From assembly GCA_020055645.1 (NCBI GenBank), contig CM034550.1, positions 15,141,001-15,205,000 of the forward strand: 64,000 nucleotides of DNA. Direction: 5' to 3'. Shown here piece after piece: positions 51,552 through 64,000 of the stretch. This stretch comes from Tomocerus qinae (lineage: Eukaryota; Arthropoda; Collembola; Entomobryomorpha; Tomoceridae). The notes under the pieces were generated by a model. The model searched no databases, was not told the origin of the DNA, and saw only the letters and a list, made by a program, of their open reading frames with translations. How positions within the stretch are numbered: the first letter of the stretch is position 1; each line of letters opens with the position of its first letter. The position numbers and the translations under genes were made by a program.

Positions 51552-53186
51552 TTAATTTATTTTGCCTAGTTGTGTCGTTTTGTTTCTTAAATCTTGTCCA
51601 TGTTCATCTTCAATACTTAAATTGAATTGAAAAAGCACCAGGACGTAGGTGACAATATTTGTGATAGCCTGTAAATGAGATTTTTATTACAAACGAAGAA
51701 TTACGCTGAATACTTTATAACAGAAAATATTTATTTTACCGTTGCAAGAAATGATGCACTAATTGTTGTGATATGAAAGGCCGATATCTTCAGCGGAAAA
51801 TGTCCCAGTTTGATGTTAAAGAGTAAAACTTGTTTGGAAATACGGGGGTCGATGTTTATGTGATGAACTCTGTTCAAAATCCTTGTTGGACTACGAGCCT
51901 AAAAAATTTCATATAAAATAGCTAAGTAAAAGTACACATATTAGATTAATTTAAAACATTGTTAAAACTGCCTACAGCATTTGTGAGAAGCTCTGCCGGT
52001 ACCAAAATATGCGCCATTGTGACTACAGAAGCCCAGGTCTGGAGTGCCCATAGTAAGACAACTCTAACCGCTTGGGTATCATTAAAATTGTTGAAATAAT
52101 GAATATTAGAATAGACACCCATCGTAATGGTGAAACAACCCGAGCAAAGTAACAGCAGTGCCTGAGAATAAAATAATAATATACCTTTTATGCATGATTA
52201 TGGACACAATGTTATAATAGCTACAAACTTTTTAACAATTTTAATCAAATTACCTGGAGGCCAAAAAATTTTTCAAAATGTCCTACAATGTCACAAACTC
52301 TTGCATGTAGGACCCGATAATATTCCACGTTTTGGTAAGTGAGTTGTTTCGAATAGAAAGGAGGATTTTTAAAAAGCAAAGCCATTTCTTCATGAATTTG
52401 GTTAAAGAAGAGTCGAATTGTAGAACATATGGTCGAGAACAAGATTCCAAAAATTAGCATGATTGTTACAGAACCAACATTACTTCCTAAGCAAGTAATA
52501 GTTGCAAATGTGTTTTCTTGACAGATTTTAGTTTTGTGACAAACTTCTTGCACAATGAAGCCTGCGTAAAGGAAACAACACAAGGAAAATATCAAACAAT
52601 GTGCTAACTTTCCCCGTAAGATTTTTGATTCCCATTTTAACGCTTCTATTTGGGCCGTTTCTGTAATTTTTATTTCTTCCGCCAGTTCCATTAAGGAGTT
52701 CCAACCTTTTTCGAATTCATTGGCTCTTAAGACGCTTAAGATTGTAATAGAAAGCGTTATAGCATAAATGATTAGTGTTTGATAAGTGAAAGTATACAAT
52801 TCTGTTCCATGGAGAATAAGTTCGAAGAGTTCTTTGATGCTTTCTTTTACCAAATTTAGAAGAGTTGCTTGAATTATTGCAAATATTATATTTCCAATAA
52901 CGGGCCATGAAATGAAACTGAATTTTACTGTTTGCCTGTCCGAAGAGAAAATCAAGGGAACCAAATGAAAAATTCGTGACAGATTTACTGCTGAGGAAAT
53001 AAAATCAGCAATATTTTTCCTATTTGCTGACTGTATTTTATACAATTTTTTAGTTTTCGCAAAATCGAAATCGCGAATAAATAGATCACTGGGAAAATAT
53101 GAATTTGTGTCTATTTTGCTTATATCCTTCATTTTAGAGATTTCAGGTTTGAAACAAATCAATTCTTGCCGAACTGGGAATTGCAT
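51552..53186 (-). CDS. Gustatory receptor (7tm_7 family), four exons, 464 aa
   Basis: This is a seven-transmembrane chemoreceptor of the arthropod gustatory receptor family, a ligand-gated cation channel of sensory dendrites. Exons on the minus strand are 53186-52254 (311 codons), 52161-51976 (62), 51898-51740 (53) and 51668-51552 (38 plus TAA). All introns are GT-AG and phase 0, as in the conserved C-terminal intron set of insect Grs. The signature TYVLVLFQF (residues about 433-441) matches the TYhhhhhQF motif in TM7. Upstream, YRVLHARVCDIVGHFEKFFG (about 290-309) is the usual intracellular loop before exon 2. Hydrophobic segments lie near residues 90-113, 135-153, 194-216 and 236-258, with two more in exon 2. 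The start MQFPVRQ is the first ATG of the open frame. Length is normal for the family and nothing is broken. The ligand is unknown; it does not show an obvious sugar- or CO2-receptor signature to my eye. Confidence 0.93.
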
Positions 53187-53680
53187 TCGAAGTGTGTTAG
53201 TAAAAATATTGGAACAGAATTAAATACGATTCGGTTAAGTCAGTTTAATTTGCTCTAATTATTTATTCACAATGCTAATTTGTTCAGCTAAGTAATTGAC
53301 TTTTGTAATTTTATTATTAATTAGACAACTATTATAGATGTACATCACACAATTACACTTTGCTTGATTGGCAGGGAAGAGAACAAACACTTAACCACTA
53401 CATTGTATTACGTAATAAAAATATACAACTCTATTTTTTTGTTGGTAGATTATATCTGGAATACATATATGCATAATATATACATAATATATCAAAGACA
53501 AAAAATATATGGAAATAATATGTAAAAAAATATGTGAATTTTTTAAGTAAGAATGTTGACAGGAAAAAGTAGTAAAATCCATGGGCTAGAGAAATGTATT
53601 TGGCCACTTATGACTTATACTTGTAGTTCAGCCAAAGAACTAACTTTTTACCCATTTTGCTACCCTTTTTAAATGAAGAT
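53187..53680. other. Promoter side of the receptor gene and 3' flank of the transporter gene
   Basis: About 500 bp lie between the receptor start and the original transporter stop codon (minus strand TAA at 53683-53681). The sequence is AT-rich and no further gene is seen. TTTATT stretches (AATAAA on the minus strand) near 53258 and 53309 could serve as poly(A) signals for the original transporter transcript. Confidence 0.5.
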
Positions 53681-53729
53681 TTAATCTTCTTTCACCGAGA
53701 TCAGTAATTTCTGAATGCATTTTGTAATT
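53681..53729 (-). pseudogene. Cut-off 3' half of the transporter's last coding exon
   Basis: On the minus strand, from the target duplication AATT (53729-53726) to TAA (53683-53681), the sequence reads in the transporter frame ...ITKCIQKLLISVKED-stop. This fits the usual C-terminal tail of SLC7 light chains, a basic/amphipathic helix ending in acidic residues. It is now separated from the rest of the gene by 2.6 kb of transposon, and the preceding reading frame stops inside the transposon, so it is probably no longer translated. Joining is exact in phase: 8 nt before plus 45 nt after the insertion. Confidence 0.85.
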
Positions 53730-53759
53730 GAAGGCCCTAATTCGAAAAGTAACGGTTTC
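53730..53759 (+). repeat. Left terminal inverted repeat of the transposon
   Basis: Thirty bases, GAAGGCCCTAATTCGAAAAG plus TAACGGTTTC, are exactly complementary to 56311-56340. The next base differs (A on the left, G on the right when oriented alike), so the repeat ends here. Confidence 0.97.
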
Positions 53760-53969
53760 AAATTATGATCGCAGATTGCTGTAATTGTCATAGAAATTAT
53801 GGTTTTCTTGTAAATATGAGGGAAACTACAAATATTTTGTCATCATTCCTTAAGTTGTCATTCTGGGTTCATAATTTTTCATTAGTTGTGCTGCATTTAA
53901 AACAGGTAATTACTAATCAAAAAAGTTTAAGATAATCAAAATCAAAATAAAATTATCATATCCAATGTT

Positions 53970-55981
53970 ATGGATCCACCTCAACAAGCGGTCAGACCGA
54001 AAAAACGCTCACGGAATCCGGAAGTATGGAGACACAATATTATAAAAGTATTGAAAACCAGAGGTAAGGAAAATAATAATTTAAATGAAATGAAATTGAT
54101 AGCATTAAAATTACGATAGTCACTATAGACTGATTCGCATAAATGAAATGTGACAATTACGCAATTAAATTTTCGGATGTTTCGAAGGACTTGAACATCG
54201 TACTCACTGGGGAAATGAACTAAAACCGGCCAGAGAAGTAGTCAATGAACCTTGCCGTCACGGCTGCCACCTGAAATTGGACATGGCAGAAAAGCAACTG
54301 ATTTTGACAAAATTTAACAGTTATCCATCGCACGAATCTCAGAATATTTATTTACAAAGTTGCACAGTACCACTCCAAAATCATAGATACGACTATATTC
54401 TTCAACTACCTGAGCGAATAGAAGTGGTTTGCCAAAAAACCTTTCTCAACGTCCACGGAATAAAGCGATCACGTTTGCAAAGAAAGGTATTAAGTTACCA
54501 ACGTTAATTACAATGTAAATTAAAAGTGGTTTTAATAAATAAAAATGTATTAGGTTTTGCAGAGACAAGTACCCATCTCTGACGGCAGGGGCAAGCATGA
54601 ACGTCACTATACAGTAGATGCTGGAATGCTTCAAATCGTACGTACTTTTATTGAAAATTTGGAGTCCAGAAGCAGTCATTATTCGATTAATGACAACCGA
54701 AATAAGATATTTCTGGAATCGCACACAACGATGAGATCTCTGTACCACCAATTACTCTTGGAGCATCCAAGATTAAATCCAAATGAATACGTCGATGGTA
54801 TCAAAGAATCTAAATTTGTGAATATTTTCAACTACGAGTATAATATAGGGTTCGGTTTTCCCCGAAGTGATATATGTGATAAATGTGAAATTCTCAAGGC
54901 CAAAATAACAGCAGCAGCAGTAGATCGTGAAGAAGATAACGAATTTAGCCTACGTTTGGAACAACAAGAACACTGGTCAGAAGCTGGTATATTTTATAGC
55001 AAGATGTCAAGAGCAACAATGGCTGAAACGGACGAAACACACTTATATCTCTGTTTTGACTATCAGAAAAACTTACCGTTTCCGGTTACAAACGTTGGAA
55101 AAGAATTCTTCCTGCGACAGTTGTGGCTTTATAATTTTGGAATTCGCAATTTAAGGACTGGTGAGACTCACATGTTTACATACTGTGAGCACTATGGTAT
55201 GAAAGGATCGTCTGAAGTCTTAAGCTTTGTAAAGTTTTATATTGAAAACTTCATTCATGAAAATATTCGCCACCTGCACCTATTCTGTGACAACTCGTTT
55301 GGACAAAACAAGAACAGATTTCTAATGGCTTACCTATATTCTATCTGTCCAGGGAGATTTGAAACTATTCTTTTCGACTTCCCATTTCCTGGTCACAGTA
55401 GAATGTTGATCGACTCTGATTTTGCTCAAATAGAAAAGAAGAAACGAAAGGAAGATAAAATACTTTACCCCTCTCAATGGGTTGATTTGATCAGAAGTGC
55501 CAAGCCCTCTGCACCATTCACAGTCATTTACGCAAATTATCCTGTAACCAATGATATGTTAAATGATGGAAGTCTAATTTGTAATATTCACGCTTACAAA
55601 ACCAGCCTGGCACCGTTAGTTCGGCCTTTAAAAGGTCAAATATCAGGAATAAGGGGACTTTCCTATTCCAATCATGGCATCTTCTCGAGAAATACTTTAT
55701 CTGGCGAAACTAATTCTCCTTTACATCTCCTGAAACCAACTATCACCGTCGCTCATTTACAGGAAGTTATTCAAACCACTCCAATAGCTTATAATGACTT
55801 TTTACCTATTGCGCCCGCTAAATTAGCTAATGTTGACGTGCTTCTGGAGACATTCTACAAACCTTCCGAAAACGTGTTTTACGACACTATTTTCAATGCG
55901 CCATTTGATGAAGATGATACCCGATTGGATATTATAAATGAGGTTGAAGATGAAAACTTTGACTTTTCGTTCTTAAATTGA
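53970..55981 (+). CDS. DUF7869-family protein, candidate transposase, 603 aa
   Basis: Exons are 53970-54063, 54188-54486 and 54563-55981, with introns of 124 and 76 bp (CCAGAG|GTAAGG ... GAAG|GA; AGAAAG|GTATTA ... TTTGCAG|AGA), all in frame. The N-terminus has the family's basic motif KKRSRNPEVWRHNIIK (residues 11-26). It is followed by a Cys pair, EPCRHGCHLKL, then SHY, FNYEYNIGFGFPRSDICDKC (zinc-ligand-like CxxC) and a C-terminal DUF7869-type domain. Acidic residues recur in the order expected of an RNase H-like nuclease: D297 (LYLCFDYQKNLP), D374 (LHLFCDNSFGQNKN) and D415/D417/E422 after GHS (LIDSDFAQIE). Proteins of this family are common in arthropod and cnidarian genomes as uncharacterised proteins. 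Here it is the only gene between perfect terminal repeats, so transposase is the likeliest role. The catalytic assignment is inference. Confidence 0.85.
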
Positions 55982-56268
55982 GCTGTCTTAATACATATGA
56001 AATTTAGCACTTTAATATGGTTGAGTAGATTGTTTCTCTAGCTGTTTCTTATGCCTTAAGTTTTCATAGAATTCGTATCGGTTCGTGAATATGTTAAAGT
56101 GATTCGCTGTACGCATGTTTATATTATAGATCTTCAATAAAGTGTTGGTATTCATTCACTGTTAACGCAACGAGTCTACATTTTTACAAACAATACACGA
56201 TTGACGATTACACTACTATATATTTCACTATTCCATTCAACGTAATATATGCGGTATCCCTATAGTTA

Positions 56269-58680
56269 TTATTTATTTGCCAGCAAACATAGGACAAATA
56301 GGGTCGTTTCGAAACCGTTACTTTTCGAATTAGGGCCTTCAATTGAATCTGTACAAGATCAAATAAAATTAATTCAGTTTTAACCATGCTTTTTAATAGG
56401 GTTAAGAATAATTAGCATAATTGAAATCGATGACTTACGATTAATTTCACTCAACCATTTGGGTTGTTTCTCCTTATTAAGTACTACTATGTAATAAACA
56501 GGCAATCCACTAAGTGTTATGATGGCTCCCAATGCTGCACTCACAGGTTTTGTGTAGATTGGGATTACAGTGATGACAAATGAAACCAGCCCAAATAATA
56601 TTGGCACAAATAGGTAAACCTAAACAAAAGCAAAACAAAAACTCAGAAAAAATTACAGAAAAGGTAATATTTAGAATTCTTTGTTCAAAATACGTTTATG
56701 AAGGTCAAAAATTCTTTTGGCGGTATGAATAATGAATGCATTACTTTGAAAGGTCTATTTAGATCCGGCTTTGTCCAACGTAGGTAAAGTAAAGCTGAAA
56801 TTGTGACGACAGCAAAGAATCCATTGGCAATAGAAGAAAAATTAATCAGAACGAACACATCGGATACAATTAAGTAAAATAGAGACAGTCCACTCTAGTG
56901 CACAAAGATGCTAATTAGCATTAATTGACAGAAATTAATTAGAAAAGATAATTTGAATAAAATAATTACCAAAAATATTATTGCAGGCTTTGGGGACTGA
57001 TTATAAACCGAAATAAACGATAATACAGTTGGCAATTGACCTTCACGGGCTCCTACTAGACATTGTCTAAATGGATTAACAAAATGCATAATTAGCAATA
57101 GTTTATACATTAATAACCGTGAAGTATTTATGTCTCACCTGGATGTTATCATTATATGAATGCTTAGAACACCAAAGGTTGAAACAGCGACAAATATTGG
57201 AACGATCCATTCTAATCCAGTTTTCCCCAACAATTTTTCGGCAAAAGTCTACATTTTTATTAGCATAAATTGTCATTTAAATATGTAATTTTATTTGCTA
57301 AGCTTAAATTTTCATTTATTCTTTGTTTTAAAGTTCTGACAACTGCAACTGCATCAGACGCTAGCATTTCTTCTGGAGTGAGGACGGAAAAATAGGCTAC
57401 GTTTGCCAGAAGATACACACAAGTCACCGAAGACATGGAAATAAAAATTGCCCGAGGTAGATTTCTAGTAATTTAAAACAACAAAATTGTATACTTTTGA
57501 ATTTTTCATGACAAACATTCCAAAGGTTGCAAAATTCAAATTAACTTTAAAATGTAAATACTTTTCAGGTTCTTTTAATTCTTCCATCATATGAGTCAAA
57601 CCCTGCCAACCTGTCACAAAAAGAGAAATGATTATCTGTCAGGTTCTAATTTATGCTGTCCACAATAATATACAGGACCATTTACCTGCAAACGCATATC
57701 CTCCATAGAATATAGCAAGAACCAAACCTCCAGCGTCCAATCTAGAATTTTTCCAAACATCATGCGTAAAATTTTCGTTTGGCCCTTCAAAACAAAAATT
57801 TCAATTTAATTTTAGACATTTATAAAGTCAGTTAATACAGACAAATATTCCAAAATAGGGCATTGGAGGGAAAACTAGGTTATACCCTTCGAAAATGAGT
57901 AGAATCCTCCAGCGATGATGATAAGTAAAGCTGAGATTTTCAACAGCAGAAACATATTAACTAGTCGAGTGGTTTTCCGGATGTCGCAGCAATTAATGTA
58001 GGTTAAAAAACAAATCAAAACGGCTGCAATTAGCTGGGAAGCTGAATCAGGTACTTTACATCCAAACGAGAAAAGTGGTTGAGTCAAATAATTGGCTACA
58101 ACAAGTGCTAATATTGCATTTGCTACCGGTCTACAAGACAAAAATAGCACATTTTAAGGTCTTCAAATGAAATTATGTGCATACAAATTAACACAAGGAC
58201 TTACGTAAATAATATAGTCGTGCTCCATATAGACAAGAAGGCCATGCAAGGACCAAAAGCTTCGTAAATGTAAATGTAAACACCTCCAGCACTTGGGAAT
58301 GTTGTCCCTAATTCTGCAAAAGAAAAAGCGCCCAGTATCGAGATCACCCCACAAGCCGTCCATATTACTAAAGACAAACCTACAGAACCTACTTCCGATG
58401 TTATTCCTTTGGGAGAGATGAAAATTCCTATATTCACAAAAAAATGCCAAAGTTTAATAAATGACATTTATAAAAACTTCTGAATAAACAAAGGTCTACA
58501 TACGACATGATAACACTCACCAGATCCGATAATAGAGCCAATGGTTATAGCGACTGCTTCCAGTAGCCCCAACTCTCTTTTCAATTTCATCTCTTTACCG
58601 AAATTTTTATTCGTTTTCGTTTCTCCATTTTTTATTGTAGGTTTTGACTCTCTTTTGATGGCTGGAACTGGACCGGTCAT
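56269..58680 (-). CDS. SLC7-type amino-acid transporter light chain, last exon hit by a transposon
   Basis: A 12-segment exchanger of the heteromeric LAT/b0,+ type. Ten intact exons on the minus strand are 58680-58521, 58427-58205, 58130-57886, 57784-57686, 57610-57562, 57464-57341, 57248-57139, 57066-56970, 56894-56745 and 56619-56439; all are GT-AG and in phase. Hallmarks are the unwound TM1 motif [14 protein letters not shown] (about 48-61), Cys152 in FGCKVPDSA where light chains bond to SLC3-type heavy chains, [26 protein letters not shown] and [20 protein letters not shown]. Exon 11 begins at 56348 (TTGTACAG|ATTC) but is split after 8 nt by the transposon. The present frame reads 23 codons into the element and stops at 56271-56269, giving 505 aa. 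The original would be 496 aa, ending at 53681. The start ATG at 58680 has A at -3. Function is probably retained since only the cytosolic tail changes; whether the heavy-chain partner still pairs is unknown. Confidence 0.92.
56311..56340 (-). repeat. Right terminal inverted repeat of the transposon
   Basis: This is the exact reverse complement of 53730-53759, ending GGGCCTTC at 56340 and followed by the AATT duplication. Read on the minus strand it now codes for the first ten residues of the replacement tail of the transporter. Confidence 0.97.
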
Positions 58681-62337: not shown

Positions 62338-62862
62338 TCAATTGCAAACGAAAACGCTAATGAGAAGAATAGTAAAGTAAATTCCATTGAGATAAAAATT
62401 TTGTTCCTGTCCCGGGCTGACTCCACTGCCATTTCCTTCGCATTTAGTTCCATCGTCATTTTTGTCGTAGCCATCTTCACATTGGCAGAAACTTGTGGTT
62501 TTATTGCATCCTGCATGATCTATGCAAATAACGGGGAATTTCTCAGATCCTCCACAAAATACGCCAACTTTAGTTTCACATCTTTCGTCTTCTTCGTCAT
62601 AAATATCTCTTTCTGCATGATGACATTTGCATGTTCGACTTTTGGGTTCACAGCTCAGACGTTTGGAACTATCACACATAAGAGATTCGTCCATAGTGGA
62701 TGGTGACGGGTCGCATATTTGTCCAAATTCTAGTTCCCCGACATGATTATGATGAGAATGAGGTCCTGTGCCCTCAACACTATCAAAAGTCAAAAGCAAT
62801 GTGCCAAAAACAGTCACAGTTGCCACAACCAAAGAAAACACTTCTATTTTCGATGATGCCAT
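62338..62862 (-). CDS. Secreted or GPI-anchored 12-cysteine protein, 174 aa
   Basis: This is a single-exon open frame from ATG 62862. Residues 1 to about 33 form an N-terminal hydrophobic signal (VFSLVVATVTVFGTLLLTF core around 8-26). A His-rich GPHSHHNH segment follows at about 33-40. Two tandem cysteine modules have the same spacing pattern C-x(9-12)-C-x(5-7)-C-x6-C-x-C-x(12-14)-C: Cys 50, 63, 71, 78, 80, 95 and Cys 103, 113, 119, 126, 128, 141. This resembles EB/EGF-like modules. The tail GNGSGVSPG followed by a hydrophobic C-terminus (IYFTILLISVFVC) looks like a GPI-attachment signal with no cytosolic tail. One N-glycosylation sequon lies at NKT (120). An extracellular binding or structural role is likely but the ligand is unknown. 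No orthologue name is claimed. It could instead be one exon of a longer gene, though no splice sites are needed. Confidence 0.8.
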   Translation of the reverse strand: MASSKIEVFSLVVATVTVFGTLLLTFDSVEGTGPHSHHNHVGELEFGQICDPSPSTMDESLMCDSSKRLSCEPKSRTCKCHHAERDIYDEEDERCETKVGVFCGGSEKFPVICIDHAGCNKTTSFCQCEDGYDKNDDGTKCEGNGSGVSPGQEQNFYLNGIYFTILLISVFVCN

Positions 62863-64000
62863 AATGAGGACGATAAAAATTACTGTAAACGAAGCTTGGA
62901 ATCTAATCTTAATCTTCTAACTCGTTTGTTTATGACTTGTTGATCTAGGCTTCTGCGTTTTACGATCCAACAATCCAACCGTGTAAACTTTTAGAGCAAT
63001 AATAATTTTCTATAGGTCCAATAATATCCTGCTGACTGTACCTAAACATTTAAAAAATAAAAATGTCTTGTAATTGATTATTTCAAACCGTAAAATCATA
63101 ATAATTTCGCCATAAATTTGATTTTTACCGGAAATTAGGGCAAAACTAAAGTTATGGTCCAACCAAAATTAAAGTTCAGTTTTCCAGACGATTTTTGATG
63201 TTTTTCCTGAAACATTATTCGTAGATCCATTAGAAGCTAGCAATAATTTCCATTGTAAATTATGTTAATGATTTTTTAACTTGCTATAAATTTTATCTTA
63301 CCGTTTGAAAATGCTAGCCTGTAGTATTTGCACTGATTTATGATGAAATTGCAAATGAATATAAATTATTATTTCCGTGAGAAATTAATACCTAATGATT
63401 TGACTGAATGTATTGTGTAATTCACGTCAGCAGAATTATGTTTAGTATTTAGGAGGGATCCTATTGTATTAGAACTACGGAGATTCGATGAATGCACTAC
63501 AAAGTTTTCGCCATTACTGTAACACTGAAAGCTTGACTCGTATTCTCCGTTTCCGTTACACTCTTTTCAAAGTAACAAGAATATTGGCATGTTTACAAAG
63601 TATATTTTTAAACGGGAGATGTGTATGCATGCAATTTAGACACATGCAAAGGATCGGGGACCGCGTGCAAAAATCACAATCAGACAGAGTGAATTGGCTT
63701 GATTCAGAAAATCAGTTAGAATGTAATACTATGTAACTACCATTAAGTATAGTACTAGACAATTAAAAGAACAAACTTCAGAAACAGAGCATGGTTTTGC
63801 CTATGTGTCAAGAAGAAATTAGCAGGAAGAGTTTAGCATTTCGCAGAAGAAGGTATTCTCGGTCAGAGCAACTAGACAGACAGTCAAAGCCAACACATCG
63901 TTCCATGTCATCATTATAAGTGTCTTTTTGAGAATGCAAGCTACAACGGAATAGTAAGTACAACGTATATAGGAATAAATAGGAAATTACACACCGAACA
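62863..64000. other. Upstream and intergenic sequence to the window end
   Basis: This contains the promoter side of the cysteine-rich gene. Open frames such as 63488-63736 lack recognisable features or splice context. Nothing else is supported. Confidence 0.45.

Follow-up and report, generated by a model that had tools for sequence, protein, structure and literature searches.

A DNA transposon of 2611 bp lies within the final coding exon of an SLC7 light-chain gene, which codes for an amino acid transporter, in the collembolan Tomocerus qinae. The stretch analysed (the window) comprises 64,000 nucleotides (assembly GCA_020055645.1, contig CM034550.1, positions 15,141,001 to 15,205,000). It is almost certain that a DDD/E cut-and-paste transposon, whose transposase carries the Pfam domain DUF7869, was recently inserted at an AATT in this exon and duplicated these four bases. 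Because the SLC7 reading frame, the last exon of a paralogous gene, the scores of the rejoined tail and empty sites elsewhere in the genome agree, AATT is a 4-bp target-site duplication. The outcome is a clean, though fairly ordinary, gene disruption with a readable pre-insertion sequence.

The element is a young transposon, apparently intact, with a transposase domain known by a DUF name alone, and it now has base-exact ends and a well-supported target-site duplication. Related lineages share the genome with it. The split SLC7 exon is a ready marker for the presence or absence of the transposon and for the precision of its excision. On the host side, it is another instance of a transposon replacing the C-terminus of a protein; among the papers listed by a search for transposons in the last exons of transporters, none concerned such a case to judge by its title.

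The split exon and its rejoined tail

The SLC7 gene occupies positions 58680-53681 on the - strand and was read from the sequence as 11 exons with GT-AG introns. Its protein matches Pfam AA_permease_2 (E 3.5e-62). Residues 29-495 of 496 align to 7ccs_B (E 3.1e-128), which indicates whole-length homology to solved light chains. Among solved structures, 18 distinct SLC7 chain sequences fall below E 1e-60, with a consensus xCT at the top. The light-chain cysteine in FGCKVP aligns with that in TCEPP of the consensus xCT, and we take it to be the conserved extracellular cysteine for the heavy chain.

The acceptor ...ttgtacag precedes exon 11, which begins at 56348. Its first eight bases, ATTCAATT, run into the element and the other 45 lie at 53725-53681, just as an earlier reading made without database searches (the sequence-only reading) had placed them. 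When one AATT is kept, exon 11 is 53 bp long, the frame closes with no stop or frameshift, and a 496-aa protein ending in ...HSITKCIQKLLISVKED results. The empty site can thus be reconstructed as had been claimed, and the joined flanks of the predicted empty SLC7 allele are expected to read ATTCAATTACAAAATGC. With two AATT the frame gives an unrelated 511-aa form, and with none it gives a 488-aa form ending in SQNAFRNY. The allele as inserted codes for a 505-aa form, in which the last 14 residues would be swapped for 23 transposon-coded ones. The sequence-only reading had used this host frame to fix the ends of the element, and its ends are correct to the base. Its figure of 2611 bp holds for the element without AATT but not for the empty allele, which is predicted to be 2615 bp shorter because one AATT is lost together with the element.

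The rejoined tail aligns to the final residues of xCT and y+LAT1. In phmmer comparisons with the 18 solved SLC7 chains, the rejoined form gains 4.1-9.9 bits over the inserted form in 17 and 2.8-8.5 bits over the two-AATT join, likewise in 17; the two-AATT join was rejected on these lower scores. When ungapped post-junction residues were compared with three family tails, shuffling gave p 0.0005-0.0017 for the rejoined form and p >= 0.13 for the wrong joins. The genome has four other SLC7-like places, two of which had their tails read; none was found in the 60 kb around the window. One, a paralogous gene, lies about 90 kb away; its last coding exon (C5:15288887-15288939) is also 53 bp long, follows a phase-1 intron and codes for PITECAQKIFLITKED. 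Seven of its 14 post-junction residues are identical to the rejoined tail (BLOSUM62 score 42), and 0 of 200,000 shuffles score as high. The second paralog, L039 (C5:11.476 Mb), has KLTVVVQKLFITAKQD and a further four residues in a single open frame with exon 10. Its tail is again 7/14 identical, with no shuffle as high in 200,000, and both wrong joins score negatively against the paralogous tails. The sequence-only reading had called the tail family-like and would have given way to a tail that lacks homology in relatives; two paralogous tails and the solved SLC7 chains match it.

It could be argued that the true last exon is elsewhere, for example in a read-through of exon 10 into the intron, where the open frame does continue, and that the split tail is a product of chance. 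We consider this very improbable, as the exon matches that of the paralog in size, phase and tail, and the split tail also matches the solved chains. A chance tail was rejected because the paralogous tails match and no shuffle scores as high.

The element, its relatives and their target sites

The terminal inverted repeats of the element span 37 nt including AATT and are 97% complementary. A genome search (best 40 of 57 candidates) returned at least five full copies of 2610-2613 bp, between any two of which there are 2-10 substitutions and 0-3 indel columns; all five have AATT on both sides. Judged by these sequences, the window family is very young and the insertion is recent.

The three predicted transposase exons join into an open frame of 603 aa. 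Pfam PF25273 (DUF7869) was detected in the open frame 54554-55981 (E 9.3e-07, 29.1 bits versus a cut-off of 26) and in the spliced protein (28.5 bits). Of the five copies, L003 and L004 are frameshifted in exon 3 and the other three have it open. All six aligned family members share D374, D415 and D417, all five that cover position 297 have D297, and the candidate catalytic residues are D297, D374 and either D415 or D417. In a low-confidence AlphaFold model of exon 3 built from six sequences (mean predicted local distance difference test score, pLDDT, 39.6), D297 lies on the first strand and D374 just past the fourth, and a later helix holds D415/D417. Such an order of strands and helices is expected of RNase H-like transposases, and the protein may cut and join DNA through an RNase H-like D-D-D centre. 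A sequence comparison with solved structures (E up to 10) gave one match, at E 0.69, which is not a transposase. The name DUF7869 was not found in the literature searched, and its use as a transposase label would follow from the anatomy of the element.

The transposase query has at least 90 genomic matches at 26-100% identity (best 90 of 314 candidates), some of which are pieces of one element. Two further families were recognized. One, non-autonomous and about 1.5-2.0 kb long, has its ends in common with the window element and includes two copies that are identical over 1598 bp. A second autonomous family has a protein about 63-65% identical where open, carries GAGCGCGTCAATCG at its ends and uses the same target. 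A total of 24 complete elements were read: five of the window family, eight non-autonomous and 11 of the second family. Three one-ended pieces (L012/L018, L053 and L056) were excluded from this set and have AATT at the end read. AATT flanks both ends in 20 of the 24. Since AATT makes up 1.5% of the 4-mers in the window, these flanks are not due to chance. Immediately outside AATT, a pyrimidine occupies 32 of the 40 flanking positions in these 20 regular elements. One other element, L046, carries the non-palindromic direct repeat ATTT/ATTT, as expected of duplicated host DNA.

Some of the relatives have features of their own. At L022:1582-6925, two second-family copies are separated by about 30 bp; at the end of the first, a piece of its terminus is duplicated, and TGATGATGATAG comes next, before the following AATT. 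In a 1.6-kb non-autonomous element, L009:749-933 (element positions 239-423) has, among the matches listed, many elsewhere at about 85% and is perhaps an older trapped repeat. A search for relatives in viral contigs gave 51 pattern-matching stretches, none of which was confirmed.

Empty sites were sought for 18 other insertions: their flanks were joined with one AATT (104 bases each) and searched against the genome (best 40 of 351 candidates). At least eight of the 18 match repeat copies across the junction (L002, L004, L011, L017, L019, L024, L026 and L028), and the one copy read per matched site is 94-98% identical. Seven are clean empty sites, in which the 4-base site occurs a single time and no gap abuts it. 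It reads AATT in L011, L017, L024, L026 and L028, ACTT in L002 and GATT in L004. The remaining ten joined sites gave no match across the junction within those best 40. The sequence-only reading had regarded independent confirmation of the ends as rare for such a family; with empty counterparts of 8/18 other sites in the same genome, that view finds no support.

These sites also bear on whether AATT could be part of the element ends, so that insertion occurs without duplication, as reported for Spy. AATT does stand at both ends of 20/24 elements, and being palindromic it lengthens the inverted repeat. The host frame, however, needs exactly one AATT and ends as the short SQNAFRNY form with none, seven clean empty sites keep a single 4-bp site, and L046 has direct repeats of ATTT. 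Insertion without duplication was rejected on the SLC7 frame, the L046 repeat and the empty sites, and we give it next to no credence.

Several points weigh against a recent insertion with a 4-bp duplication. The exon models of both SLC7 and the transposase come from sequence alone, and it is strand order in a low-confidence model that suggests the DUF7869 protein to be an RNase H-like transposase. A clean duplication is missing from three of the 24 elements, namely L049 (ATTA/TATT), L025 (ATAA/AATT) and the first of the two L022 copies. The empty copy of L019 is without three bases beside the site, in a TAATAA stretch where the gap can slide into the site; it is roughly in agreement with a single site. 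Because several of the 18 solved chains represent the same protein, they are not independent, and with SLC7A13 (8wk6) the rejoined form gains nothing, at 219.5 bits versus 219.5 and 219.9. L041 and L042 match the exon-10 part, and the tails compared are those of the other two SLC7-like places. The full-length SLC7 gene matches itself alone in the assembly, with no empty allele or alternative contig found there.

The predicted change to the transporter and the rest of the window

The SLC7 transcript probably ends inside the element. In one account of b0,+AT, the cytoplasmic C-terminal helix touches the heavy chain (PMC9110406), and in our own reading of the alignment the exchanged SLC7 region would correspond to this helix. 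The transporter may be altered rather than abolished, because no more than the tip of its cytoplasmic C-terminal helix is replaced. A changed, perhaps still working, transporter appears to be the likeliest outcome.

Insertions survive more easily in dispensable genes, and with four other SLC7-like places in the genome this transporter might be a little-used copy in which the insertion is neutral. We find this unlikely: none of the ten upstream exons is disrupted, their introns are GT-AG, and there is no second full-length copy at the DNA level. A stronger prospect, though one we do not favour, is that the insertion is carried on some haplotypes while most individuals have the empty allele. This is compatible with a recent insertion and fits the youth of the transposon family; the missing alternative contig speaks against it.

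Features of the transposon and the SLC7 gene are collected in Table 1. Elsewhere in the window, most of the first two thirds is taken up by a satellite array (1478-41030) whose 343-bp unit is repeated about 115 times, and a tandem repeat at 704-1263 has 14 copies of a 40-bp unit. Directly downstream of the transporter, a hydrophobic open frame of 324 aa (52245-53219, - strand) is insect chemoreceptor-like by eye and has no Pfam match at E 0.1. A 192-aa open frame (62338-62916, - strand) resembles, by eye, a secreted cysteine-rich protein.

Table 1. Coordinates of the transposon, its insertion site and the interrupted SLC7 gene.
Feature	Position	Strand	Basis or remark
Autonomous DNA transposon, 2611 bp without flanking AATT	53730..56340	+	ends common to five near-identical copies; host frame; empty sites of relatives
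Terminal inverted repeat, left	53730..53762	+	arm 53726-53762 including AATT
Terminal inverted repeat, right	56308..56340	-	arm 56308-56344 including AATT
Target-site duplication AATT, first copy	53726..53729	.	flanks element
Target-site duplication AATT, second copy (also bases 5-8 of exon 11)	56341..56344	.	
Predicted transposase exon 1	53970..54063	+	splice sites picked from sequence
Predicted transposase exon 2	54188..54486	+	splice sites picked from sequence
Predicted transposase exon 3 (DUF7869; D, D, D residues)	54563..55981	+	splice sites from sequence; Pfam
AATAAA, possible transposase poly(A) signal, downstream of transposase stop	56136..56141	+	sequence match
AATAAA, possible poly(A) signal of truncated transporter transcript, just before new stop	56272..56277	-	sequence match
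Transposon-coded tail of inserted allele (23 residues, stop at 56271-56269)	56269..56340	-	sequence
SLC7 exons 1-5	58680-58521, 58427-58205, 58130-57886, 57784-57686, 57610-57562	-	
SLC7 exons 6-10	57464-57341, 57248-57139, 57066-56970, 56894-56745, 56619-56439	-	
SLC7 exon 11, first 8 coding bases	56341..56348	-	
SLC7 exon 11, other 45 bases including stop codon	53681..53725	-	

Comparison with known transposons

The element has the terminal inverted repeats and target-site duplication of class II cut-and-paste elements. It may also encode its own transposase: the 603-aa frame is open, with a DUF7869 domain, conserved D residues and, in the low-confidence model, an RNase H-like strand order. 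The window transposase scores above the curated cut-off for DUF7869 proteins, a family to which Pfam assigns no function. Spy reportedly has an AT-rich palindromic target as well, and is described in a title as being without target site duplications, whereas the window element shows one of 4 bp.

Sola2 elements are described as having 4-bp AT-rich target duplications, with AWWT in one amoeba group (PMC3627910). The AT-rich 4-bp duplication found here agrees with that description, AATT in 20 and ATTT in one of the 24 complete elements fitting AWWT, whereas the Sola2 protein described there has 888 aa versus 603 aa here. Literature joining AATT target-site duplications with the Sola transposase superfamily was searched for and none was found. 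The target fits Sola2, which is a candidate superfamily for the element, though we do not file it there.

piggyBac is described as strongly preferring the palindromic 4-bp AT target TTAA (PMC7351741). The window element likewise uses a palindromic 4-bp AT target, but it is AATT rather than TTAA, and no piggyBac match appeared among solved structures at E up to 10. DUF7869 transposases might form a separate lineage that targets Y-AATT-R and could excise tracelessly, as piggyBac does at TTAA. This is a speculative and rather doubtful idea, conceivable because the 4-base site is palindromic. If it were true, the SLC7 exon would be a natural reporter of seamless excision, in which a precise loss would put the frame back and most footprints would disrupt it.

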